In this document: in pieces, positions 1,004-37,439 of the stretch
Layout of the letters: every line of letters begins with the position of its first letter
Position numbering within the stretch: the first letter of the stretch is position 1
Origin: Salana multivorans
GTDB taxonomy: Bacteria; Actinomycetota; Actinomycetes; Actinomycetales; Beutenbergiaceae
Assembly (NCBI RefSeq): GCF_003751805.1
Contig: NZ_RKHQ01000001.1
Location: forward strand, 496,001 to 560,000
DNA length: 64,000 nucleotides
Direction of reading: 5' to 3'
Notes under the pieces: model-generated
What the model saw: only the letters and a program-made list of their open reading frames with translations
What the model was told of the DNA's origin: nothing
The model's database searches: none
Made by a program: the position numbers and the translations under genes

Positions 1004-4000
1004 CTATAGACCCCGACTGAAACCGCCCTGTTCCGGCGTACTCCTGCGCTGCTGGTCAAAAGCAGACCGACGTCGGCGTTCCTGCTCGACCTGCTCAGCC
1101 TGACGTGCCCTCTGCGCAGCACGGGTGCGCTCGATCCGTGCGACTGCCTCGGCAGGTGTCAGGGACCGCAACAACTCGGCTTCCTTTCTCGCCTGGTTCG
1201 CGGTCTTCGCGGCGCGTGCGGCTTCTTGCGCGGGGTTCGCGGTGAGGTACGCCTGTCGATTGCGGGCTACCGTGTCCACGCCGAAGACGCGCGCGACCGC
1301 CGTAAGCCTCGCTGCCCTTGCCTGTTCCGGCCTACTCAGCGACGCATCGCGTGCGGCCCGATGCTCCCGTTCAGCGTCAGCCAAGCCAGGATCGTTATCG
1401 ATCCTGGGCCGGGTAACTCGCTCGACCCAGCCGTCCACGCGGTCGTTCCATCTCGGGGATTCGCCCCACTCGTTCGTCAACTGCTCGCGAACATCGTTGA
1501 GTCGCGCGGTGGCGCGTTCGTGCTCTTCACGTGCGCGACGCTTCCCCAACCACGACGCCTCCCTCAGCTGCGATCCTGCTGCGCGCTCGGCAGCTTCACT
1601 CTGCTGCCACGCGGTAAACGCTGCTCTCGCGGATGAAACGAGCGGCGTGGTGATCTGCTCACGCATCTGTTCGACCCGCGCGCGGGCGGCTTGCTCGGTG
1701 GCCCGCGCCGTCTCGCGTCGCGCCATCTCACCAGCATTCAAGTTGGAGAGAGCCGCGCTGACTCGCTGCCAGCGTTCAGCCACCACCTGGGCACTGTCGG
1801 CGCGCTGCAACAGGGCAGCAATCTCATCGTTCACGAACTGAACGGGGCCGTCCACGATCATGCCGCGAACGGCGTCCTCGGCGGCGCGGGTGGCATGGGC
1901 GAGGCCTCGGTCTGCCGGGTCGCGTTCCAATGCCTCGATGAACTGTGCCCTGGCGTCGGCCATGTTCTCGGCGACGACGTGGAGCCGGTTTACCTCGCGG
2001 CCTCGGGTCATGCCGACGTAGACCCCGGCAGCGGTGGTCGCCTCCGACAGGATCGTGTGGGAGGCGGCGACGGTTGCGCCTTGGACGCCGTACGCGGTCG
2101 CCGCGTAGGACAGGTGCGCGTGCTCGCCCACATACTCGGGCGAAAGGGTGACTGTGCGGGGGTTCTTCCGGCCGCTGCCAACCTCGCGGGCATACACGGT
2201 GCCGTCGTCGGTGACCTGCTGGACGATCCACTGCTGCCGATTCGCAACCCCGAGCGCAGTGTCGTTTCTGCGGGTCTGGATCAGGTCACCGCCCCCGATG
2301 GCGAGACCGTCACTGCCGGTCGCCGTCACCTCGTCATCGACCTCACCCCGCTCAATCCGGCCGGTACGGATGCGCTCGTTCAACTCCGCCGCTTCGTCGT
2401 TCGTGGCGACCGTGATCGCTTCGCCGTCGTGGGCGTGCTCAGCGATGTGCTCGCGGGCTTGCTCATCATCAGCGTGCAGCGTCACGAGCCCCATCGCGGC
2501 GAGTTGGTCGAACACGTCGCCAGGGGTCTCGCGGTCGCGCATCGCCAGTGTGAGCGCCGCGTAGTCGGGATCGGTGAAGCGGTGCAGCTCGGTCATGTCG
2601 TAGCGGCGGCCCCTGATCTGCGCGGCCATGTCGAGCACCCCGCCCCGACCAACCGCGGGGAGCTGGGCGCGGTCGCCGACGAGTGCGACCGTCGTCCCCG
2701 CCTCGGCGGTCACAGCGAAGAGGGCGTGGGCGGTGTCCTGGTCGAGCATCCCGGCCTCATCCACGATCACCCGCTCACCCCGCGACAACACTGCATCCTT
2801 CGGCGGGCCGGTGTAGGTGCGCTTGCTCTCGGGATCGAGGTCGCCCACAGCGAGGCGTGTCCATACGCCGTCACGGTTCCACCGCCACCCGTGCGCATAC
2901 ACGAGCGCCGCAACACTGGTTGCGGGCACCCCGAGTTCTTCGTGCGCGACCTGCGCGGCGCGCAACGTCGGCGCGACCACCCGCGATGCCCTGCCATGCT
3001 CGGCGGCAACTTCGATAGCGGCGCGCAGCATGTTCGTCTTTCCACTGCCCGCCGCGCCCTCCACGATCACCAGCGCATCGGTCGAGGCCACCGCTGCTGC
3101 CGCGAGGGTCTGCCCTTCATCGAGTCCAGCCGTTCGCGCGGCTTCGGTCACGTCGGGGTGCTCTGGCTCACGGCGCTGTGTTGCGGCGGTGAGTTGGTCG
3201 CGTAGCGCGGTCTCAGCGGCAACCACGCTCAGGCTCGTCAGATGTGCGACATGCTCCGGCGTCGCCGAACCGGGCGGCAGGACAGAAAAGCAGTCCGAGG
3301 CGGCAAGCTCAGTCGCCACGGTGATGAACTCCCGCAACTCAGCGGGTGCGACTTGCACGCCTGCCTCGGTGGTGATGCGAGTGACATGCTCCTGGATCGT
3401 GTGCCGCGTCCACGCTGACGCACCCGCCGCACAGCGATCGAGCGCACGCGATGCAACCTCCTGCACGGATAGCTCATCTACTGCCACCGCAGGTTGCGCG
3501 GCACGGCGCTCAGACGTTGCGGGGTCGTATCCCGCGTCGCGGAGTTCCTGCACCCACCATTGCTCGTTCTTCAAGTCGGCGGGCTTCTTTCCTGGCCGCT
3601 GATACGTCCAGGCGATGCCCTGCAAACGCGCCGTCATCACCGGCCCCAGTTGCTCACCCGGATGCGCCTGCTCCCATTCGGCTTCGAGGCGTTCCAAGTT
3701 GCGCTTGATCTGCGCCGACCGCTTCGACATCACCCCGTTGAACGGCTGCAACTCGGACACCTCACCGGACGCCGGATCAAGTGTCAGGCCGTGCTCTGCG
3801 AGGGTCTGAGCGAGCTGCGGGTGCGCGGCGATCACCGCCGTGCCGAGGGCGCGGATCGCGCCTTGCTGCTTGAACAACGCCGCCGTGTCCAGTGCCCGCC
3901 ACTTCCCGGCGGCGAAGATGCGGGTGCCGATCTGCATGTGGATATGCCGGTGCGGATCACCCGCACGGGAGGTCTTGTGAGTGATGCCGACGACCTGCAT

Positions 4001-4456
4001 GTGTTCGATGGGTACGACCTCCCGCGCATTACGCGGGCCAACCCTCGTGACGGAATGCTGACCGAGCCAGCGGCGTATCTCGGTGAGGGCGTCTTGTTGG
4101 GCGGCGTCGAGGGCTTCGGAGACTTCGGGGTGGAGGGCGGCGGCGACCGACAGGGACTTGGGCGCGTTGATCGTCATTTCGGCGAACAACGGCGACCCCT
4201 TCGACCTCTCGCCCGCCTGGCGTGGAGTGCCCATCGACTCACCAGATTCGGGGTTGATCCAGTCCACCCAACCCTCATACTCGACCGCCGACAACGACCG
4301 GGCGGCGGTGACCTCGCCGCGCGCGTCGAGCACCGCGTACTCGGCTACGGTATCGTCTGCGCCGAGGTAGTAGTCGTCGGCACGGGAGCGGTCGGCCTCG
4401 ACGTACCGGCGCGCGGCGGCACCGTTGCCGCGGAAGAGGATCACCCCGCCCTTCAT
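1004..4456 (-). CDS. MobF/TrwC-type conjugative relaxase with fused SF1 helicase
   Basis: About 1150 residues; nicks plasmid or ICE DNA at oriT and unwinds the strand for conjugation. The N-terminal relaxase domain has a Tyr pair (residues 29-30), an APKSLSV motif (98-104) and the metal-binding histidine triad H169-H171-H173 preceded by H160. The helicase half has Walker A GAAGSGKT (467-474), Walker B VIVDEAGM (563-570) and a late 'YAATAYGVQG' motif typical of TraA/TraI/RecD-like helicases. The charged C-terminus looks coiled-coil. The ATG at 4456 is preceded by GGGAGG at 5-base spacing; a longer frame to 4525 lacks a better site. That Shine-Dalgarno sequence lies inside a perfect inverted repeat. 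Intact, unlike the TraA remnant at 13,005. Confidence 0.93.
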   Translation of the reverse strand: MKGGVILFRGNGAAARRYVEADRSRADDYYLGADDTVAEYAVLDARGEVTAARSLSAVEYEGWVDWINPESGESMGTPRQAGERSKGSPLFAEMTINAPKSLSVAAALHPEVSEALDAAQQDALTEIRRWLGQHSVTRVGPRNAREVVPIEHMQVVGITHKTSRAGDPHRHIHMQIGTRIFAAGKWRALDTAALFKQQGAIRALGTAVIAAHPQLAQTLAEHGLTLDPASGEVSELQPFNGVMSKRSAQIKRNLERLEAEWEQAHPGEQLGPVMTARLQGIAWTYQRPGKKPADLKNEQWWVQELRDAGYDPATSERRAAQPAVAVDELSVQEVASRALDRCAAGASAWTRHTIQEHVTRITTEAGVQVAPAELREFITVATELAASDCFSVLPPGSATPEHVAHLTSLSVVAAETALRDQLTAATQRREPEHPDVTEAARTAGLDEGQTLAAAAVASTDALVIVEGAAGSGKTNMLRAAIEVAAEHGRASRVVAPTLRAAQVAHEELGVPATSVAALVYAHGWRWNRDGVWTRLAVGDLDPESKRTYTGPPKDAVLSRGERVIVDEAGMLDQDTAHALFAVTAEAGTTVALVGDRAQLPAVGRGGVLDMAAQIRGRRYDMTELHRFTDPDYAALTLAMRDRETPGDVFDQLAAMGLVTLHADDEQAREHIAEHAHDGEAITVATNDEAAELNERIRTGRIERGEVDDEVTATGSDGLAIGGGDLIQTRRNDTALGVANRQQWIVQQVTDDGTVYAREVGSGRKNPRTVTLSPEYVGEHAHLSYAATAYGVQGATVAASHTILSEATTAAGVYVGMTRGREVNRLHVVAENMADARAQFIEALERDPADRGLAHATRAAEDAVRGMIVDGPVQFVNDEIAALLQRADSAQVVAERWQRVSAALSNLNAGEMARRETARATEQAARARVEQMREQITTPLVSSARAAFTAWQQSEAAERAAGSQLREASWLGKRRAREEHERATARLNDVREQLTNEWGESPRWNDRVDGWVERVTRPRIDNDPGLADAEREHRAARDASLSRPEQARAARLTAVARVFGVDTVARNRQAYLTANPAQEAARAAKTANQARKEAELLRSLTPAEAVARIERTRAAQRARQAEQVEQERRRRSAFDQQRRSTPEQGGFSRGL

Positions 4457-4461
4457 CTCGG

Positions 4462-4491
4462 CCTCCCTCATGAGTCGTCTCATGAGGGAGG
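4462..4491 (-). promoter_or_regulatory. 13-bp perfect inverted repeat covering the relaxase ribosome-binding site
   Basis: Arms 4462-4474 and 4479-4491 are exact reverse complements with a 4-base loop. On the minus strand the distal arm contains the GGGAGG Shine-Dalgarno of the relaxase, whose ATG is 5 bases further on. In RNA the hairpin would hide the ribosome-binding site; in DNA it could be a repressor operator or part of oriT. Seen directly; function inferred. Confidence 0.7.
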
Positions 4492-4695
4492 TGTGCGCCA
4501 CGGCCCCGCCGTGGCATACGTGCATAACCGTGAATGATTTGATGGGTCAGGATGCTGTGACGCTTCGGGAGCTCAGGGAGTTGTCGCTGTGGTGCTCATG
4601 GGTGAGATGGTCGGGGCGAGTTAGGGTAGAGAAGTAGCGGAGCCTGGATCGACTGCTGGGGTGGTCGGATGTCTGCAAATAGTAGGAGTTGAGGT
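4492..4695. other. intergenic region between divergent relaxase and response-regulator genes; candidate oriT/promoters
   Basis: About 200 bases without a gene. It holds a second short inverted repeat (4498-4504 with 4508-4514, 3-base loop) next to the 13-bp repeat. MobF elements often place oriT, with inverted repeats near nic, just upstream of the relaxase gene, so this is the first place to look for oriT; no nic consensus was recognised. It must also carry the promoter of the downstream regulator operon. Confidence 0.35.
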
Positions 4696-5382
4696 ATGCA
4701 GACAATTCTGCTTGTGGAAGACGACCGGGACATTGCTGATGGCCTCACGAAATTGTTCGAGTCAGCTGGTTTTGCTTCCATCCACGCTGCTACTCGGGCA
4801 GAGGCTCTAGAAGCGGTGACAGCGAGAGACTTCGATGTAGCTGTTGTCGATATCTCGTTGCCGGATGGTAACGGTTACTCGATTTGCACTGAGGTCAAAG
4901 CACATAAGGGTGTCCCAGTGATCTTTCTGACGGCTTCTGGAGACGAGGCCAGCGTGGTTACTGGTTTGAACATGGGAGCCGACGACTATGTTCAAAAGCC
5001 GTTTCGCCCCCGTGAGCTTCTCGCGCGTATTCATGCGACGCTGCGAAAGAACAGCCCTTCGCTTTCTCGGGTCGAGGTAAATGGCCTGGTGGCAGATCTT
5101 GCCAGTGGGACAGTGTCTAAGCGTGGACGGGATGTTGCGCTGTCGGCCCTCGAGTATCGACTGTTGCTGCTTTTTCTTACTAACCCGTCGAATGTGCTGA
5201 CGCGTTCACGTCTGCTCGACGAACTGTGGGATGCTGCCGGGGAGTTCGTCACTGACAACACGTTGTCGGTGTACATTAAACGGCTTCGTGACAAGATCGA
5301 AGATGATTCATCCAGGCCGACAATTATTTTGACCATTCGAGGGATCGGCTATCGTCTCGGCCGAAATCATGCTGAGAAATAG
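4696..5382 (+). CDS. OmpR/PhoB-family response regulator
   Basis: 228 residues. Receiver domain with acidic pocket E8-D9-D10, phospho-acceptor D52, T79 and K101 (in YVQKPF), followed by a winged-helix output domain ending in the typical TIRGIGYRL segment. The ATG is preceded by GGAG and GAGG. The stop overlaps the kinase start. Its position ahead of a kinase and an FtsX-type ABC transporter matches modules in which a regulator controls transporters that expel or sense cell-envelope antimicrobials. Base composition is clearly less GC-rich than the chromosomal two-component pair near 51,081. Confidence 0.93.
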   Translation: MQTILLVEDDRDIADGLTKLFESAGFASIHAATRAEALEAVTARDFDVAVVDISLPDGNGYSICTEVKAHKGVPVIFLTASGDEASVVTGLNMGADDYVQKPFRPRELLARIHATLRKNSPSLSRVEVNGLVADLASGTVSKRGRDVALSALEYRLLLLFLTNPSNVLTRSRLLDELWDAAGEFVTDNTLSVYIKRLRDKIEDDSSRPTIILTIRGIGYRLGRNHAEK

Positions 5383-6358
5383 AGAGGTTCGCGTGCCGGC
5401 CGTGCTCGCGGCCGCGGTGGCAGTCTGCGGAACGCTCGTTGCGTTTCTTCATGGGACTGCGGCGGGACTTGTCACGGGCGGCGTGTCGCTGGCGCTCTGC
5501 GCGATCTTATTTGTGCACATCCGGCTGAGATACGCGCGCATCGCGGAATTGACTCACCAGATCGATATCGCACTCCATCAGGGAACTGACTTTCGCTTCG
5601 ACAGTCTCGAAGAAGGGGAACTGTCTGTCCTTCAAAGCGAGATACACAAGCTCCTTCTCCGGGTTCAGGAACAGAATGCCGCGCTCAGACGCGAAAAGGA
5701 GCATCTTTCTGATTCTCTGGCAGATATTGCACATCAGCTACGCACCCCTCTCACTTCAGCCACGATTACGATGTCGCTCATCGCTGATCAAGGTGACCCA
5801 GAGGAGCGGAGGGCGCTCACGCGGCAGGCTGAAGACCTACTGAGCAGAATGGATTGGCTCCTCACCTCTCTGTTGAAGCTATCCCGGCTTGATGCTGGCG
5901 TTGTCAGCTTCCAAGACACCTCTGTCTATGTATCTGAGCTGATTGATGAGGCCATCCAGCCGCTGTTGGTCCTGTTGGATATCCGAGATGTGTCCTGGCA
6001 TGCCGATATCCCTGAGACTGCTTCGTTGCACGGTGATCCGAGGTGGATTGGCGAATCGATTCGTAATGTACTGAAGAATTGCATTGAGAGCGCTGGCGTC
6101 GGCGGCGTCATTGAAGTGGGCTGTGTAGAGACGCCTCTGTACACGGAGATCACGATTGCCGATAATGGCGACGGGATCGATCAAGCGGATCTTCCCCGCG
6201 TGTTCGAACGTTTCTACCAGAGCAAAGACAAACACAGCCGAGGGTATGGGATCGGGTTGGCTCTGAGCCGGACGATCATCACTCGTCAGGGCGGCTCGAT
6301 CGTTGTGCGGAATCGCCAGACCGGTGGTGCCGAGTTCGTGATTCGCTTCCCCAAGTGA
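5369..6358 (+). CDS. membrane sensor histidine kinase
   Basis: About 329 residues. Two close N-terminal transmembrane helices with almost no extracellular loop (residues ~10-50), a short linker, a HisKA domain with the phospho-accepting H122 in DIAHQLRTPL, and a HATPase domain with DNGDGI and GYGIGLAL boxes. The lack of a sensing loop is typical of kinases that receive their signal from a partner ABC transporter. The gene overlaps the regulator by 14 bases. A GTG at 5393 with AGAGAGG five bases upstream is an equally good or better start (321 residues). Confidence 0.92.
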   Translation: MLRNREVRVPAVLAAAVAVCGTLVAFLHGTAAGLVTGGVSLALCAILFVHIRLRYARIAELTHQIDIALHQGTDFRFDSLEEGELSVLQSEIHKLLLRVQEQNAALRREKEHLSDSLADIAHQLRTPLTSATITMSLIADQGDPEERRALTRQAEDLLSRMDWLLTSLLKLSRLDAGVVSFQDTSVYVSELIDEAIQPLLVLLDIRDVSWHADIPETASLHGDPRWIGESIRNVLKNCIESAGVGGVIEVGCVETPLYTEITIADNGDGIDQADLPRVFERFYQSKDKHSRGYGIGLALSRTIITRQGGSIVVRNRQTGGAEFVIRFPK

Positions 6359-6440
6359 CAGTTCTCTCACTTTGTCGTCACTCGTGTGCAAGACCTGCTC
6401 CTTATCGTGAGAACGATGGATAGGAATGGAGTTAGGTCGG

Positions 6441-7127
6441 ATGCACTTTCTGCGAGCTGAGAACCTCAGCAAGGTCTACGGCACTGGCGAGAGCCAGGTT
6501 GCCGCTGTAAACGATGTCTCACTGGATTTCACACAGGGAGAGTTCACCGCGATTATCGGAGCATCCGGATCTGGGAAGTCCACGCTCCTGCACATGATCG
6601 GCGGTGTCGATGTACCCACTTCGGGCAGAGTGCTCCTCAACGGGGTAGACGTGTACGCTCAAAGCCGCGAGAAGCTCGCCATTTTCCGGAGACGTCAGGT
6701 TGGTCTGATCTACCAGTTCCACAATCTGCTGCCCACCCTGAACGTGGTTGAGAACATCACCCTGCCAGTGTTGCTCGACAAACGGAAAGTCAACACGGAC
6801 AGGCTGAACACGTTACTGGAGATGCTGGGGCTCGAGAACCGTCAAAACCATCTTCCCAACCAGCTGTCAGGCGGTCAGCAGCAGCGCGTGTCCATCGGTC
6901 GAGCATTGATGAACGCTCCTGCCGTGATGCTGGCTGATGAACCGACGGGAAGCCTTGATAGCTCGAACGGGCAGGAGATCGTCAGACTCTTGAAGGAAAG
7001 CAACCGGGTGTTTGGGCAGACCCTGCTCCTGGTCACCCATGATGAGAGCATCGCGTTGCAGGCGGATCGGATCATCGGGATTTCCGATGGGAGAGTTGCG
7101 CGGGACGAGAGGATCTCCCGAACGTGA
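6441..7127 (+). CDS. ABC transporter ATP-binding protein, MacB/LolD/BceA-like
   Basis: About 228 residues. Walker A GASGSGKST (40-48), signature LSGGQQQR, Walker B VMLADEPTGSLDS and a switch histidine in LVTHD. These boxes match the ATPases that drive FtsX-type permeases. The ATG at 6441 is favoured by GGAG/TTAGG upstream; an in-frame ATG at 6426 adds five residues with a poorer site. The stop overlaps the permease start (ATPase ends 7127, permease GTG at 7124), implying translational coupling and a 1:1 complex. Confidence 0.93.
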   Translation: MHFLRAENLSKVYGTGESQVAAVNDVSLDFTQGEFTAIIGASGSGKSTLLHMIGGVDVPTSGRVLLNGVDVYAQSREKLAIFRRRQVGLIYQFHNLLPTLNVVENITLPVLLDKRKVNTDRLNTLLEMLGLENRQNHLPNQLSGGQQQRVSIGRALMNAPAVMLADEPTGSLDSSNGQEIVRLLKESNRVFGQTLLLVTHDESIALQADRIIGISDGRVARDERISRT

Positions 7128-9751
7128 GTATCCTCAACAAAGTCACGCTCGCCGGGATGCGTAAGAGCCCCGCACGCACGATCGTGACGATCGTTGGCAT
7201 AGTGCTCTCAACTGCAATGATCGCAGGCGTCGCGACGTTCGGTGCTTCTCTGCAGAACTATCTTGTCGAAAGCTCTCTTGCGAAGACCGGCAATTGGCAC
7301 GTGCAGTTCACGAACGTCGATGCGGCGGGTATCGATGCCCTGACCGCAGATCCCGAGGTTACTCACCTTTCAACTATTGACGAGGTCGGGTATGCGGCGC
7401 TCCCGGGGATCCGCAGCGAAGATAAGCCCTACGTGTTCATCGCCGGGCTCACTGAGGGCGCTGTAGACACCCTTCCGATCTCTGTGCTCTCAGGACGTCT
7501 CCCCGAACGAAGTGACGAGATCATCGTTCCTTCACACCTCGCAGCCAAAGGAGGCGTGCGGCTCCAGGTTGGCGACCAGGTGCCCCTTGCCGTTGGTGAA
7601 CGACACCTCGCAGACGTGACGCTCTCGCAGAACGACCCGTATTCTGCAGGCAAGGAGGGCGAGAACCCGGAGCAGTTCACGCCCACGATGCAGCGCATCT
7701 ACACGGTCGTCGGCACTATGGAACGGCCGGAGTTCGAGACGCAGACGGCCCCTGGTTACACGATATTAACGAAGGCAGATGCGGGAACGACGCCGACGCT
7801 CTCGACCGCCTTCGTGACGGTCGAGAGTCCCGCGAACGCAGGGTCCTGGGCCGAACAGTCAGGGATCGGATCGTCATACGTGCTGAACGAGGATGTTTTG
7901 CGCTTCCTCGGCGGGTCGGGCAGCGCCACCTTCAACCTGATCCTCTACACACTGGTGGGCATTGTCATCCTGATCATCATGATCGGGTCGGTGTTCCTCA
8001 TCTATAACTCGTTCAGCATTTCCACGAGCGAACGCACGAAACAGTTCGGCATCTTGTCGTCTGTGGGCGCCACCCCGCAGCAACTGCGCAACTCTGTGAT
8101 ATTCGAAGGATTGTGCCTCGCAGCGCTCGGCATCCCCATCGGGCTCATCATCGGTACCGGCGGTATCGCCGCCGTCCTCCCCGTCATCGAGAAGAACATG
8201 GGAACGCTCGCAGAGAACTCAGTGCCCCTCACGCTCTCCATCTCGATACCGGCTCTTATTGCAGCCGCGTTTGTCAGCCTGGTCACGATCCTCGTTTCGG
8301 CATATGTACCTGCGCGTAAGGCCGCGATCCGGCCAGTGATGGAAAGCTTGAGAGAAACCAACGAAGTACTCATCACGTCAGAGAAGGTGCGCACCTCGTC
8401 GTTCGCGGCTCGCCTCCTTGGTCTTGAAGGTGCGCTCGCGATGAAGAACTTCAAGAGAAATCGCCGCCGCTATCGGACCATCGTTCTCTCACTCGTACTC
8501 AGTGTTGTCCTATTCGCCGCCGGAACAGCCTTCGGTTCGACTTTGAAGCGTCTTGCGGATCTCATCACGATGGACTTCGATTATGACGTCTTGTTCGTGG
8601 CCGATAACCTCCCAGCGTTGGAAGCCGATCAAACCTTCGACACCCTCATGAGCGCCTTCGGGGTGACCGACGGCAGCTCTCAGACCGTACTCGACTACAC
8701 CGTCGAAGTAGGACCCGAAACCCTCTCCCCGGAATACCGTTCGGAACTCGGCGGCACGGAAATGGCGGAAACGGTCACGCTGCCGTTTCATTTCCAGTTC
8801 ATTGCAGACGATCAGTATGCAGCGTTCGCAGCGGAACAAGGCGTCGATACGGAACACCACACTGGGAGCCTCCCGGAAATGGTCGCGGTCGCGAAAGCCC
8901 AAATGCCGACCTCGGACACGGATGGGACCAACCAGAACACCTCGCTGGTCGACCTCTTCGGTGGCGCAGCCGAGCCACTCACCATCACACCAATTGCGCC
9001 AGACGGTGTACCGGTCGGTACACCTGCGGAGATCTCAGTTCGATTCGTCGACACGTACCCGGTCGACCCGCCGCCTGGGAAAGGGACTTTACCTGCCCCC
9101 ACGAACGTTGAAGGCGCAACTTCACCCTATGTGTTTATCGTGATCGCGCCCTCCTCGATGGAGGACGCCTTCACCGTTAGTGGAGTCGGGGAAACCGTTG
9201 CGATGGCCTTCCAATCCTCGACACCGTCCGAGACAACCAAGCAGATGGAAGCTCTCATCCAGTCGCTCGGAATTTCTTCCGACTACCAGCTACACAATGT
9301 CTACTCGATGGTCGAGCAATTTGAGAGCGTTACCTTCGTCGTTGAAGTATTCACCTATGGGTTCGTACTTCTGATAACGCTGATTGCGGTCGCGAACGTC
9401 TTCAACACCATTTCCACAAATATCAAGCTTCGGAAACGAGAGCTGGCCATGCTGAGATCCGTTGGCATGTCAGACGCACAACTCAACCGGATGATGGGCC
9501 TGGAAAGCGTGTTCTACGGGGCCCGTACTCTGGTCATCGGGATTCCGCTCACGATTCTTGTGACTTGGCTCATTCACTCAGGTCTTGCAACTGTCGAGAG
9601 CGTGGAGGGATTTGACTTCGTTTTCCCCTGGGCAAGTATCGCGATTAGCACCGCAGGCGTACTCCTTATCGTGTCGCTGACCATGGGTTTCTCGATTCGC
9701 AAACTCAAGAAAGAGAACATCATCAACGCTCTCCGCAGCGACAACCTATAG
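7124..9751 (+). CDS. FtsX-family ABC transporter permease (SalY/MacB-like)
   Basis: 875 residues. N-terminal helix after 'RKSPARTIVTIVGIVLS', a large extracytoplasmic region, a first FtsX-type three-helix block (~residues 280-400), a second extracytoplasmic domain (~460-720) and a second FtsX block at the C-terminus with 'KLRKRELAMLRSVGMS', a classic FtsX linker. Such permeases act in MacB-type extraction or sensing of lipoproteins, lantibiotics and bacitracin-like peptides. With the preceding regulator, kinase and ATPase it forms a four-gene module. Substrate cannot be read from sequence. Start is GTG within the ATPase end. Confidence 0.9.
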   Translation: MSILNKVTLAGMRKSPARTIVTIVGIVLSTAMIAGVATFGASLQNYLVESSLAKTGNWHVQFTNVDAAGIDALTADPEVTHLSTIDEVGYAALPGIRSEDKPYVFIAGLTEGAVDTLPISVLSGRLPERSDEIIVPSHLAAKGGVRLQVGDQVPLAVGERHLADVTLSQNDPYSAGKEGENPEQFTPTMQRIYTVVGTMERPEFETQTAPGYTILTKADAGTTPTLSTAFVTVESPANAGSWAEQSGIGSSYVLNEDVLRFLGGSGSATFNLILYTLVGIVILIIMIGSVFLIYNSFSISTSERTKQFGILSSVGATPQQLRNSVIFEGLCLAALGIPIGLIIGTGGIAAVLPVIEKNMGTLAENSVPLTLSISIPALIAAAFVSLVTILVSAYVPARKAAIRPVMESLRETNEVLITSEKVRTSSFAARLLGLEGALAMKNFKRNRRRYRTIVLSLVLSVVLFAAGTAFGSTLKRLADLITMDFDYDVLFVADNLPALEADQTFDTLMSAFGVTDGSSQTVLDYTVEVGPETLSPEYRSELGGTEMAETVTLPFHFQFIADDQYAAFAAEQGVDTEHHTGSLPEMVAVAKAQMPTSDTDGTNQNTSLVDLFGGAAEPLTITPIAPDGVPVGTPAEISVRFVDTYPVDPPPGKGTLPAPTNVEGATSPYVFIVIAPSSMEDAFTVSGVGETVAMAFQSSTPSETTKQMEALIQSLGISSDYQLHNVYSMVEQFESVTFVVEVFTYGFVLLITLIAVANVFNTISTNIKLRKRELAMLRSVGMSDAQLNRMMGLESVFYGARTLVIGIPLTILVTWLIHSGLATVESVEGFDFVFPWASIAISTAGVLLIVSLTMGFSIRKLKKENIINALRSDNL

Positions 9752-9758
9752 CACCATC

Positions 9759-9794
9759 TGGGCGGGGCGAATCCAACGCAACAGGCCCCGCCCA
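9759..9794 (+). terminator. stem-loop terminator after the ABC transporter operon
   Basis: 10-bp perfect GC-rich stem (9759-9768 with 9785-9794) and 16-base loop, eight bases after the permease stop. No long T run follows. Confidence 0.7.
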
Positions 9795-10174
9795 ATGGTC
9801 TATTGAAGTCGAGGCCCTGCATACGAGGGATTTCATCGCTGGCTGCTCCGTGAACGTGTAGTTGCAGCATGCGCGAATTCGGGTTCGCGAGTCCCTCAAA
9901 TCAGATGGTGCGGATTCGAGCAATGCGAGAACCCGAATCAAGGGGCCGGCAACACACGAACTTCGAGTGGGTTCTTGCTTCTTATGAAGACGCAAGCAAT
10001 CGATAACCCGTTGTGAGAACTCGACGCCCTGGATATCCCCTCGGCAAAGCTTCAATCTCCATTCCAAGTGAATCTCAAGACTTGAGGCCCACGACATACA
10101 CGGCTCAGGAACAGCTAGGCCATTTCCGGCTTGCATCGTGACCAGAAGTAGCGGGGAGATCACCCACTTTTGGT
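9795..10174. other. 380-base intergenic stretch without a supported gene
   Basis: Open frames here do not look like proteins. A 10-bp inverted repeat (ATTCGGGTTC at 9877-9886 and its complement at 9929-9938) separated by 42 bases is visible. The region should contain the promoter of the following gene. Nothing else is recognised. Confidence 0.4.
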
Positions 10175-10217
10175 CGTCCACGGCGCACCTCCCTTCTAGG
10201 AGGCGTCACCGTGGACG
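10175..10217 (+). promoter_or_regulatory. hairpin sequestering Shine-Dalgarno and GTG start of the 10,211 gene
   Basis: Two nested perfect stems: outer 9 bp (10175-10183 with 10209-10217) and inner CCTCC/GGAGG (10188-10192 with 10199-10203). The inner stem contains the AGGAGG ribosome-binding site and the outer stem contains the GTG start, so folded RNA would block translation. The relaxase gene of the same element has a similar arrangement. Confidence 0.65.
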
Positions 10218-11083
10218 AACACACCTCACCCGCCAGCAACCATGCTGCGGGGCAGGCTGGCTCGACCAGCGGCAGTTTCGAGAGCCCGGAAGGGCTACGC
10301 GCCCTGCTGATCCGATTACATGAGTCCGGGACTGGGGCATGGCGGAATGATCGTGAAGCGGCTGAGCTGATGCGGTTCACAGCGGCGAGATACAAGCAGT
10401 TGGCGCGCAAATACGGACTCGATGCCTGGGCGGTCGCTTCGGCGGCATTCGAGGTGATGCTTGCACCATCAACACGGAACGCGGGAAACCCATGGGCGGT
10501 CGTCACTCACGCGGTGCGGATCACGTGTCTCGCCGAGACTCGGGCCGCGGGGATGCTGACCTCGATCAGCAAGGTGCGCCACACATCCAGGATCGCGGGC
10601 TTCCACGACGCGATCCGGTTCGCCGAGCGAGAGCACCTGACCGACTACCACCCAGCCTTCGCCGTCGATCCCGCGACCGACGAAGACGACGACTCCGAAA
10701 ACGGTGACCGCGCCAAGGTCACCACGGCACTCTCGGACACCGTGGGATTGTTCCTCTCTGCGGGCTGGGATGTCGCGCTCGTCGTGGCGTGTGTTGAGCA
10801 TGCCACGTACCGGCTGGCTGATCTGCCATCGCGTGCTCGCGCGGTCGAGGTGTTGCGCCGTGACCGCGCCACCCCTGAACTGCTGGGCATCCCACCAAGA
10901 TCATGGACGGCACTGTTGCGGATCGTCCTTGGGAACCCTGATCGGAAGCACGCGGGCACCCCGACCGGCGAAGGCGTTCTGTTGCGGCTCCTCGACGGGG
11001 AACCTCTCGACTCGCTGCGCTGCGACACCGGCTTGCTGGCGGCGATCTGGGCCGCCAACCCGAACAAGTCGGATTCTCCCTGA
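10211..11083 (+). CDS. element-associated protein of unknown function
   Basis: 290 residues, soluble, no transmembrane segment. GTG start fixed by AGGAGG at 7-base spacing. A serine/alanine-rich N-terminus (1-40) precedes a helical domain (about 45-220) with an acidic stretch near residue 155, and a C-terminal helical segment. No catalytic motif is recognised. Its place between an element's cargo operon and its recombinase suggests a role in element maintenance, regulation or excision, but that is inference. A paired small gene follows 39 bases later. Confidence 0.7.
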   Translation: MDEHTSPASNHAAGQAGSTSGSFESPEGLRALLIRLHESGTGAWRNDREAAELMRFTAARYKQLARKYGLDAWAVASAAFEVMLAPSTRNAGNPWAVVTHAVRITCLAETRAAGMLTSISKVRHTSRIAGFHDAIRFAEREHLTDYHPAFAVDPATDEDDDSENGDRAKVTTALSDTVGLFLSAGWDVALVVACVEHATYRLADLPSRARAVEVLRRDRATPELLGIPPRSWTALLRIVLGNPDRKHAGTPTGEGVLLRLLDGEPLDSLRCDTGLLAAIWAANPNKSDSP

Positions 11084-11406: not shown

Positions 11407-12981
11407 TTATGCGCGCCAGACGAACTCGACCCGTCGTGCGAGCACTGCGGCGCGGTGAGCGTCGCGGCGATCATGGAACGCTTCGGTGCTCTCGTTGCGG
11501 CGCTTGGGCACAGCGGTCATCATGTCCGCCGGGTGCGCGTGCACGAGCACCGCTTGCAGGATCAGGCTCGTCGCCTGGTACTGCCACATGGGAGTGCGCC
11601 CCTCCCATTCCGCCGCAACCGTCGTAATGTCGATGCTCGGCCCGGCATGTTGCTCGGGCATCGTCGCCGCGTACTGGCGGCGCGTGGCGTCGATCCGTTC
11701 CGCGATTCTCGCGCGCTGTCGTACCCACATGGCCTTGTCGATTAGCCCGTCGTAGTAGTCGTCATCAAGCTGTGCCAAGCGTTCCCGATCCGCGTCGAGC
11801 GTCGCCGTCAGCCCAACCCGCGCAGCTAGACAGTTGTCGGAAGTTCGCCGGTTCTGAGGTTTGAGGGTGATCTGCTCGAACGTTGCGAGCACTGCTTCTT
11901 CCACGAGCCTCTCGATTTCAGCGGAGCGAATCGAACGAGTACACCCGCCCGGCGTCGGCTGTAAGCACTGATACACGCCGCCCCGATGAATCATCGACGT
12001 TCCACACAAAGAACAGCGGATCAGCCCCGAGAACGGATACATCCGCACAGCGGCACCGCTGCCCGGTTCATGGAAGTTCCGCGCCTTCTTCCGCGCGTCG
12101 AGCACATCGGAGACCTGCTGCCAGGTGTCCTCGTCCACCAGGCCAGGCCACGCCGCCTGCACCTGCATCCTCGACGTTCTCGCTCGGCTCCCGTCAGGGA
12201 GTACGGGCCGGTACTCGCGCACTCCTTTGTTGGAAGGGTTGCGCAGCACCATTTTGAGCGTCCGATCCGACCACATGCAGCCGTGAGTGGTGAGAATGCC
12301 GCGCTCGTTCCAGTCCTTCCGAATCCGATACAACGACTCACCGGCGAGCACCCGCTGGTACATCTCGACTACCAGCGGCCCCGTCACCGGATCAATCACG
12401 AGCGCGCCTGCCTCTGCCCGGTATCCGAACGGCACCCGGCCACCGTGCCACGCACCATCGATTGCCTGCTGCTTCGCCGCCCGAGCCACACGCCTGGCGG
12501 TGTCAGCGGATGACTTGTTCGCCATCGCGACCAGCACCCTGGCCATCGCCACATCAGAGTCCGTATCCAAACGGAGCGAGCCGGTCACGGAGCGGGCGGT
12601 GAACCCGCCGAGCACCTTCGCGTCGATGAGGTCTTCCAAGTCGCGCGGGTCGCGCACCGCTCGATCCAGGTCGTAGGCGATCATCACCTGCGCATCACCA
12701 GAGTCGAGGTGCGTCAGCATGGCGCGAAACTGCGGGCGGATCACTCGCCGCACCCGCTCGCCAGACGGCAACGTGATCGTGCGCTGCTTGAACGCCGACG
12801 TGTCATTCTCCCGGAACACCGCCGCGACTTCCCAGCCGTGGGCAGCGGCGTAGGCGCGACAGTCGGCCTCCTGCCGATCCACTCCGCGTTCGGTGCCCTC
12901 GGGGTCGTCACTGATCCTGACGTACACCACCGCCCGCAACGGCTCGACGCTCTGCTGTTCGTGGCCCATGCTTTGGCCCAC
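11407..12981 (-). CDS. large serine recombinase (integrase)
   Basis: 524 residues. N-terminal resolvase domain with catalytic S24 in VYVRISDD, followed by the 'YDLDRAVRDPRDLEDLID' helix and a 'GRVPFGYR' recombinase-domain entry (~181-188). A zinc ribbon follows with C323, C326, C339 and C347, then a coiled coil. This order is diagnostic for large serine integrases/transposases that join attP and attB without host factors. GTG at 12981 gives the full frame; ATG at 12969 is an alternative, with AGGAAGG upstream of both. It lies at the element edge beside a truncated traA gene, as expected for an integrase next to its attachment site. Confidence 0.93.
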   Translation of the reverse strand: MGQSMGHEQQSVEPLRAVVYVRISDDPEGTERGVDRQEADCRAYAAAHGWEVAAVFRENDTSAFKQRTITLPSGERVRRVIRPQFRAMLTHLDSGDAQVMIAYDLDRAVRDPRDLEDLIDAKVLGGFTARSVTGSLRLDTDSDVAMARVLVAMANKSSADTARRVARAAKQQAIDGAWHGGRVPFGYRAEAGALVIDPVTGPLVVEMYQRVLAGESLYRIRKDWNERGILTTHGCMWSDRTLKMVLRNPSNKGVREYRPVLPDGSRARTSRMQVQAAWPGLVDEDTWQQVSDVLDARKKARNFHEPGSGAAVRMYPFSGLIRCSLCGTSMIHRGGVYQCLQPTPGGCTRSIRSAEIERLVEEAVLATFEQITLKPQNRRTSDNCLAARVGLTATLDADRERLAQLDDDYYDGLIDKAMWVRQRARIAERIDATRRQYAATMPEQHAGPSIDITTVAAEWEGRTPMWQYQATSLILQAVLVHAHPADMMTAVPKRRNESTEAFHDRRDAHRAAVLARRVEFVWRA

Positions 12982-13019
12982 CTTCCTACTCTTGTGAGAG
13001 GTAGGTGTGTTTACAGAAC
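12982..13019. other. probable element-chromosome junction (att site)
   Basis: Between the recombinase start and the first residues of a broken TraA-like helicase frame. The helicase frame is closed by a TAG at 13002 and resumes with recognisable sequence (LGYAVTSYRAQG) from about 13020. The recombination core must lie in or next to this stretch; the exact crossover dinucleotide cannot be fixed without the other end of the element. Confidence 0.6.
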
Positions 13020-14015
13020 CTCGGCTACGCCGTCACCTCCTACCGGGCGCAGGGGATCACGACCGACACCGCGCACGTGCTGGTTGACGCTGCCATGACA
13101 CGGGAGAACCTGTACGTCGCCCTCACCCGCGGCCGCGAATCCAACATGGCCTATGTCGCGGTCGACAAGTTCGACGCCGCACACGAGGGGCCGCATCCTG
13201 GCGACCACACCGAAGCGACCGGCCGCAGCGTCCTATTCGGAGTCCTCCAACACGTCGGCGCCGAGCTGTCCGCACACGAGACCATCACCGCCGAGCAAGA
13301 CACCTGGGGATCGATCGCCCAGCTCGCCGCCGAGTACGAGACCATCGCCGCAGCCGCCCAACACGACCGCTGGGTCGCCCTCGTCCGGGCATGCGGGCTC
13401 AGCGACGACGCGATCGCCTCCGACGCCTTCGGGGCGCTCGCCGTCGAACTCCGACGCGCCGAGGCCAACCACCACGACATCGAGACCCTGTTGCCACGAC
13501 TGGTCCGAGCGCGCTGGTTCGTCGACGCCGACGACATCGCCACCGTCCTCCACCACCGCGTCGCCACAGCCACCGCCCGCCCCGCCGGCTCCGGCCGCGC
13601 CCGCAAGGCCCCGCGTCTCATCGTCGGGCTCATCCCCGAAGCCGCCGGCACCATGACCGCCGACATGCGCAGGGCGCTCACCGAACGACGCGGCCTCATC
13701 GAAGCCCGCGCCGACGCGATTCTCGATCAAGCCTTCAACGACAGCGAGAGCTGGACGACCGCTCTGGGCACGCCGCCCAAGGATGAGCGCGCCGCCGCGA
13801 CCTGGCGGCACCACGCCCGAACCGTGGCCGCCTACCGCGACCACTACAACATCACAGCGACCACCGCTCTCGGCGCCCCGGCTGAGAGCACCGCGCAGAA
13901 GATCGACGCCGCGCACGCCAGGACCGCGCTCGACAGGGCACGCAAGTCGTCCCACGACCGCGAGATACCGCCGGATCGCCCCGCAGGACGAGAGACGGTG
14001 GGCCGCGTGCTCTGA
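13005..14015 (+). pseudogene. 3' remnant of a TraA/MobF-type relaxase-helicase gene
   Basis: About 336 residues of the C-terminal end only. It opens with the last SF1 helicase motifs (GYAVTSYRAQG, then VALTRGRESN at about residue 35) and continues with the helical tail typical of actinobacterial TraA proteins. Walker A and B and the relaxase domain are absent. A stop codon sits just upstream. The break coincides with the recombinase edge, so the gene was most likely split by insertion of the neighbouring element; its 5' half should lie at the other end of that element. The apparent GTG start at 13005 is unlikely to be meaningful. Confidence 0.85.
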
Positions 14016-37086: not shown

Positions 37087-37099
37087 GTCATTCCTCCGA

Positions 37100-37240
37100 A
37101 ACGCCTGCGAGGTGAGCTGTCGGGTTCGGGCTGGAGACTGCCCGGCCGCTCGCCTCGCAGCGAGTGGCTTCACCCCAAGGAGCCGGCGAACCGGACTCCG
37201 GAGAACCTGGGTCCCCCGTCCCTACCTGTACATCCGGCCC
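37100..37240 (-). promoter_or_regulatory. c-di-AMP (ydaO/yuaA) riboswitch
   Basis: On the minus strand the leader has the conserved blocks of this riboswitch: GGGGGACCCA near its 5' side, CTTGGGGTGAAGCC in the middle, and CCCGACAGCTCACCTCGCAGG close to the 3' end, immediately before the NlpC/P60 ribosome-binding site. ydaO riboswitches in actinobacteria usually precede cell-wall hydrolases, and c-di-AMP normally turns them off. The 5' boundary is approximate and may extend to about 37310. Confidence 0.8.
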
Positions 37241-37439
37241 CGGGCGCGGTGGTAGGGCTCGGCGCTACCGCGTGGGACGCCTCCGGGTGCCGGAGACAGG
37301 ACGAGGTTACCGGACCGTTCGGAGAAATGTCACGTTTCGGTCACGGTCTTGTCGAGTGGCGTGCGACACGCCCCGCGACACGCCGAAAGGAGGGCACGCG
37401 AGGGCGCCGGGGAGGGGCGACGACTCCCGCGACGACGCG

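Follow-up and report, generated by a model that had tools for sequence, protein, structure and literature searches.

We have analysed the leader of a gene for a 290-aa protein, hereafter geneX, in a 64,000-nt stretch of the Salana multivorans genome (contig NZ_RKHQ01000001.1, positions 496,001 to 560,000). The whole stretch is called the window, and its own coordinates are used throughout. A hairpin encloses both the Shine-Dalgarno (SD) sequence and the GTG start codon of geneX, and this hairpin is most likely a cis-acting translational lock in the geneX mRNA leader. Its 5' arm, mimicking the 16S anti-SD sequence (CACCTCC), would pair with the gene's own SD and result in poor ribosome loading. 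This reading is built on the sequence and its predicted pairing, on the conservation of the SD stem, and on covariation in a neighbouring hairpin and in the SD stem of a relaxase gene. The lock would be part of an architecture placed on several starts (geneX, MobF relaxases and a serine recombinase) of actinobacterial conjugative or mobilizable elements.

Table 1. Positions of the hairpin arms and of the genes and leader elements discussed, in window coordinates
Feature	Positions	Strand	Description
Outer stem, 5' arm	10174-10183	+	TCGTCCACGG; specific to the window
Inner stem, 5' arm	10188-10192	+	CCTCC, anti-SD mimic, in the conserved CACCTCC context
Inner stem, 3' arm (SD core GGAGG)	10199-10203	+	
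Outer stem, 3' arm	10209-10218	+	CCGTGGACGA; contains the GTG start codon (10211-10213)
geneX	10211-11083	+	290 aa; in actinobacterial mobile elements; no informative family match
Relaxase SD hairpin	4462-4495	-	CACACCTCCCTCATGAG ACGA CTCATGAGGGAGG; 13-bp stem at 4462-4491; covaries among relatives
MobF/TrwC relaxase gene	1004-4456	-	From an SD-preceded internal start
ATGNACGN(A/T)T element and small hairpin	4496-4525	-	Upstream of the relaxase SD stem; leader open reading frame or oriT-like
Serine-recombinase leader hairpin	12979-13007	-	CACCTACCTCTCACAAGAGTAGGAAGGTG, ahead of the start at 12969
Serine recombinase	11407-12981	-	Resolvase, Recombinase and Zn-ribbon domains; SD-preceded start at 12969

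Nested stems enclose the SD and start codon of geneX

The hairpin is composed of an outer stem of 10 bp and an inner CCTCC/GGAGG stem of 5 bp closing a CTTCTA loop. The minimum free energy of positions 10165-10230 was -30.9 kcal/mol, as compared with -16.05 (standard deviation 2.66) for shuffled sequences (z -5.58), none of the 200 shuffles being as stable. Each base of GGAGG had a predicted pairing probability of at least 0.996, and that of the GTG was 1.0. This agreed with the initial annotation, which had placed nested stems over the SD and GTG of the gene at 10,211.

Hairpins of this stability are frequent in the GC-rich window, so that the case must rest on conservation and position. Equal or better folding was found for 414 of 42,636 46-nt segments (~1%), forming 158 clusters over both strands. 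We have also counted uninterrupted Watson-Crick SD stems in those chromosomal genes of this genome whose SD matches at 5/6 positions or more: stems of at least 5 bp were present in 15/153 genes and of at least 6 bp in 4/153. Judged on length only, the 5-bp inner stem of the window is therefore a 10% event. In the same count, closely related geneX leaders had SD stems of at least 5 bp in 10/10 cases and of at least 6 bp in 7/10. These background frequencies are what can be said for a GC-rich hairpin merely falling on a start by chance; such a coincidence is made extremely improbable by the conservation of the SD stem among homologues, described below.

Searches with the Rfam covariance models gave no family at the leader (12 loci at E<=1, the window at the gathering cut-off). 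Within 9740-10300, no intrinsic terminator was found, and a promoter search confined to the sigma-70-like type returned none, the chance expectation being just 0.3.

The SD stem is conserved among geneX homologues

The SD stem was scored under a strict rule, demanding at least 5 Watson-Crick pairs on the SD and an arm containing ACCT or CCTCC. Among distinct leaders grouped by protein identity, it was present in 12/12 at 60% or more (the window included), 27/49 at 40-60% and 2/24 below 40%. Across 13 aligned leaders of the close clade, again including the window, CACCTCC and GGAGG were invariant. SD pairing probability reached at least 0.97 in all 13, and start-codon pairing ranged from 0.17 to 1.0.

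The outer stem that takes in the GTG is specific to the window, being absent from all 12 other aligned close-clade leaders. The TCCACGG sequence occurs in the window only, the other close leaders having a GGTGG or AGTGG arm opposite CCACC or TCACC. In the window a long stem is preserved by pairing with another 5' sequence, which also captures the start codon. By burying the GTG as well, this private stem would make for a tighter lock. The conservation in related elements on which the initial annotation had staked its claim was thus found for the inner stem and not for the outer one.

We have then compared leaders selected by the motif with other genes preceded by an SD in the same loci. Mean SD pairing was 0.85 in the 49 motif-selected leaders vs. 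0.60 in the 167 other genes, and values above 0.8 were found in 32/49 vs. 42/167, the latter including some other locked starts. The 49 distinct leaders were those kept after exclusion of 39 named geneX loci, among them another copy of the window locus (L063) and two loci with the motif at a start that had not been picked (L052 and L059).

Covariation in distant geneX leaders

In leaders of far relatives, single folds displayed two helices, the SD stem (P2) and a hairpin just 5' of it (P1), after which the P1/P2 structure was defined by hand. Upstream of the window SD stem there is a hairpin of 3 bp only. The alignment comprised 30 of 36 far leaders (distinct and with equal arm spacing), which had been selected for P2 and not for P1. 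Seven of the 8 P1 pairs showed double changes. P2 was 90% paired and mostly invariant. Taken jointly, P1 and P2 had 48 double-change cells vs. 28.7 (standard deviation 3.3) in shuffled alignments (0/500), and a covariation of 0.240 vs. 0.137 (standard deviation 0.013; 0/500), with 0.136 for the best slid version; these shuffle controls do not take phylogeny out. The covariation proposed as a check by the initial annotation was seen in the far P1 and P2 helices taken jointly, and not in the close-clade SD stem, as detailed further below.

Similar hairpins precede the relaxase and recombinase genes

A second locked start had been claimed at the relaxase, and its 13-bp stem was confirmed, the leader at 4456-4525 folding with a z of -5.85. 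In an alignment of 12 leaders including the window (L188 was excluded for its coordinates and L190 for its length), the relaxase SD stem had a covariation of 0.218 vs. 0.118 (standard deviation 0.019) in shuffles (0/500) and 0.142 in the best slid version. Double changes occurred in 4/13 pairs, a number reached in 27/500 shuffles.

Five loci (the window, L012, L013, L014 and L019) have similar serine-recombinase leaders, CACCTACCTC...GAGTAGGAAGGTG. Their SD stem and that of a second type of MobF relaxase are of the CACCT...AGGTG type. For the latter relaxases, a GC(N)CACCT-type arm was found in 26/32 loci with a permissive pattern and a strict SD stem in 12/32, two near-identical pairs (L014/L168 and L181/L184) being included in the 32. 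The hits of the underlying scan, 70 in 430 kb vs. 25 in 442 kb, were not deduplicated per gene and are only indicative.

The initial annotation had suggested from two such starts a shared post-transcriptional control of transfer or maintenance functions. This idea is strengthened because the relaxase SD stem covaries and five serine-recombinase leaders have a similar stem; the second-type MobF stems gave it further support. A single common regulator gained none, and the suggestion is upheld in part.

Upstream of the window-type relaxase, the ATGNACGN(A/T)T...CYACC/GGTAG element is kept in 24/28 distinct leaders (loci L187-L210), even in those having no SD stem, where the uninterrupted-stem rule undercounts stems with one mismatch. 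In nine relatives the ATGNACGN(A/T)T element can be read as a short open reading frame (ORF), M-x-x-C-Y-x-x-stop. From its sequence, the element could equally well be a short leader ORF or serve a hairpin or origin-of-transfer (oriT) function.

A palindrome of the TTGTCAACC..GGTTGACA type, a possible operator, precedes the GCTCACCT arm by ~25-45 nt in the relaxase leaders L165, L166, L170 and L014/L168. Beside the serine recombinase, window positions 13005-14015 (+) hold a fragment that is similar to the C-terminal helicase portion of a different MobF relaxase.

How the hairpin may open

A putative leader ORF with its own start, running through the lock, is present in the far relatives. An ATG or GTG precedes the arm by 10-30 codons and opens a frame through P2 in 30/36 far leaders, 28 of these frames being in register with geneX and 2 ending at a TGA that overlaps the geneX ATG. 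By eye, GGTGA precedes the leader start in 22/30. Ribosomes coming from this start would probably melt the lock by running through it. In the erm and cat translational attenuators, a leader ORF likewise comes before a locked SD. The window clade differs from these: an in-frame leader start was found in 0/13 close leaders, the window included, and the other two frames had one in 2 and 9 of the 13, with weak SDs. This closes the ribosome read-through route in that clade unless another frame serves, and opening there requires another trigger. It might be an RNA or protein acting in trans, translation of a different frame, or transcription beginning within the 5' arm.

The same frames bear on whether the conserved bases are simply coding sequence, in which case arm and SD would specify extra N-terminal residues of geneX (..RT-C/S-L-S/P-G-G-A..TM). 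In 42/49 leaders, the arm's ACC does stand in the geneX register. However, the stem is strictest precisely in the close clade, where no leader has an in-frame start. By eye, the amino acid of the third codon varies (C, S, Y or F) but its first T is kept, and GGA GGT appears to be retained where high-GC codon use would predict other codons. We consider a coding artefact very unlikely.

IS10 and IS50 are known to be protected from impinging transcription by a hairpin that covers the SD of their mobility gene. An analogous arrangement here would have outside transcripts carry the 5' arm and be locked, with a native promoter inside the hairpin yielding unlocked mRNA, which would suit an integrated element with variable upstream cargo. 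Removal of the 5' arm lowered the predicted SD pairing in 13/13 close leaders (from 0.97-1.0 to 0.23-0.83) and freed the window start (0.12). The drop in SD pairing was, however, smallest of the 13 in the window itself (1.0 to 0.83), the leader start of the far relatives is upstream of the hairpin, and the sigma-70-like promoter search described above found no candidate. Read-through protection is rather unlikely.

Observations that weigh against a translational lock, and a DNA-level alternative

Several observations weigh against the hairpin being a translational lock. The strict rule was failed by 22/49 homologues at 40-60% identity and by 22/24 below 40%. A weaker form of the stem was present among these failures in L048, L050, L051, L073, L038 and L042; L053, L054 and L074 have, by eye, no hairpin leader altogether. 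In the close clade, double compensatory changes were found in 0/12 pairs of the SD stem, so that its conservation could stem from another cause. The same applies to the far leaders, where 1/9 P2 pairs had a double change. P1 was paired in only 60% of cells in those 30 leaders, and RNAalifold, applied to the same set, returned a different, weak register with no double change. Two of the five P1 and P2 measures lay within the shuffles (207/500 for the number of pairs showing a double change and 70/500 for further pair types), as did one for the relaxase stem (257/500 for further pair types), whose double-change pairs stood at 27/500. In L020 and L021, the leader of the serine recombinase fell short of the strict stem. 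The bias towards the leader frame in far relatives is modest, with 30 leaders vs. 9 and 24 for the two alternative frames (of 36). Finally, by eye, six relaxase loci lacking a good SD (L164, L173, L174, L176, L181 and L184, the last two near-identical) hold a CACCT or TACCT arm with no partner SD. Persistence of the arm in such leaders points to an additional or different role of the arm, or to relics.

For this last reason a role at the DNA level stays a live rival, although an unlikely one. The GCNCACCT arm and its neighbouring hairpin would then be an operator or an oriT/nic-like MobF site, the SD pairing being incidental. With a hairpin immediately 5' of it, GCNCACCT would resemble the layout of MobF plasmid oriTs. 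The arm is also more widespread than the strict SD stem in the second-type relaxase loci (26 against 12 of 32), the six loci without a good SD keep it near the start, and the ATGNACGN(A/T)T element likewise outlasts the SD stem in window-type relaxase leaders (24/28). Against a DNA site stands the fact that the arm precedes genes of differing function on one element. Moreover, the distance from CACCT to its partner in geneX leaders is mostly 10 nt, with 12 nt in L031 and 15 nt in L039 and L040 (six loci whose match had no N-terminus or no start were omitted), and the close-clade stem contains an asymmetric CA bulge and G-U pairs. Variable spacing, bulge and G-U pairs fit an RNA better than a DNA dyad of fixed geometry. 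By eye, some relaxase leaders also have a third base of GCNCACCT that changes in step with the far arm (GCTCACCTG/CAGGTGAG in L163 and L171; GCACACCTT/AAGGAGGTGTGC in L122).

The geneX protein and its neighbourhood

At E<=0.1, the geneX protein had no match in Pfam or NCBIfam, and at E<=0.01 none of its 56 aligned homologues had one in Pfam. Comparison with PHROGs, NCBIfam and PDB sequences gave scattered weak matches only. Membership in the sigma-70 family was considered and is not supported by profile comparison, hhalign against 9 extracytoplasmic function (ECF) sigma factors of the same genome giving a probability of 0.3%. The AlphaFold2 model (predicted local distance difference test, pLDDT, 84; predicted template modelling score, pTM, 0.48) placed residues ~18-117 on sigma region 2 at 3.2 A over ~90 residues, with a Z of 6.5-6.6, a level common for helical models. 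The best Foldseek E-value was 0.18. These fold lists, which have no profile support, provide a weak hint of a sigma-factor link.

Among relatives, 7/99 had a geneX homologue, as did 19/394 genomes of the class and 36/396 of the order (the own genome being included in each), and 9/47 and 25/221 genomes of two families, the samples overlapping. One plasmid record and no phage record contained a homologue. We have examined 12 named-genome loci of the close clade (66-90% identity, flanks of up to 5 kb). The window-type relaxase (at least 75% identity) was present in 8 and the window-type serine recombinase (at least 70%) in 8, with three further loci having a different serine recombinase of ~30% identity. 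The interval between relaxase and geneX differs in relatives, no blastn match spanning 4,533-10,181. In the window, its 4696-9751 part carries what we take to be genes for a response regulator, a sensor kinase, an ABC ATPase and a large permease-like protein; relatives hold other DNA there.

In four distant loci tested (L104, L116, L118 and L123), geneX homologues neighbour ArdC-like, Prim-Pol, DUF2637 and ParB_N-like genes. The ORF that follows geneX and overlaps it resembles ParB_N in all four, exceeding the curated cut-off in L116 only. More generally, the geneX stop lies within ATGA or GTGA in 41/73 cases. A 77-aa ORF with no family stands in the window where far relatives have the ParB-like gene. 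geneX is split in L022 (3393-5465) and L023 (4995-8579), the pieces being ~1.3 and 2.7 kb apart. Elsewhere in the window, a c-di-AMP riboswitch (ydaO/yuaA leader, RF00379) was detected at 37087-37256 (-) with an E-value of 3.2e-11.

Relation to known systems and significance

The closest parallel is with the RNA switches of parAB and traH in the gonococcal genetic island, which the consulted parts of that report describe as tandem stem-loops occluding the SD and start, with mutants proving control (PMC8716806). There, partition genes of an element encoding a type IV secretion system are concerned, the parB start overlaps the parA stop, one element has two switches and, in those same parts, no natural trigger is established (PMC8716806). 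The systems differ in host and genes, Neisseria parA and traH vs. geneX, relaxase and recombinase, and we claim no sequence relation; control there is proved by mutants (PMC8716806), whereas here it would follow from predicted pairing. As to the tandem feature, P1 is a candidate second stem-loop in the far leaders (double changes in 7/8 pairs, 60% of cells paired), the window having the 3-bp hairpin only. According to the sections consulted on the ISPpu9 transposase, its ribosome binding site (RBS) is likely folded in the 5' untranslated region, and a weaker structure gives more translation (PMC8450116). A likely folded RBS of a mobility gene is common to both cases; in ISPpu9, an antisense small RNA helps opening (PMC8450116). 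In Actinobacteria, the portions consulted of a survey of ileS T-box and riboswitch leaders predict translational regulation by hairpins directly on the SD (PMC1262725). Those leaders contain sensor domains (PMC1262725); the geneX leader matches no Rfam family.

Within the terms searched, we found no literature report of such leaders on genes of actinobacterial integrative and conjugative elements (ICEs). The lock would be of a known kind, apparently in a variant that the literature searched does not describe for these elements.

The retained geneX SD stem and the similar relaxase and recombinase locks suggest that mobile elements restrain key genes at the level of translation. We infer that these hairpins repress, regulate and couple the genes they precede. 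More tentatively, P1, the GCNCACCT arm and the SD stem may constitute an undescribed class of SD-locking leaders on geneX-parB, MobF relaxase and recombinase genes, through which one signal would keep the element translationally silent and release these genes together. Candidates for such a common signal would be ribosome traffic on the leader ORF or an element-encoded RNA-binding factor.

To our knowledge, little has been established about how actinobacterial ICEs and mobilizable elements are kept silent while in the chromosome and how they turn on transfer. A conserved lock that can be found from sequence, placed on a relaxase, a recombinase and a gene ahead of a parB-like one, would offer a direct handle on the control of these elements. 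Its motif may be used for finding them, and the lock itself is a clue to the function of the unnamed geneX protein family.
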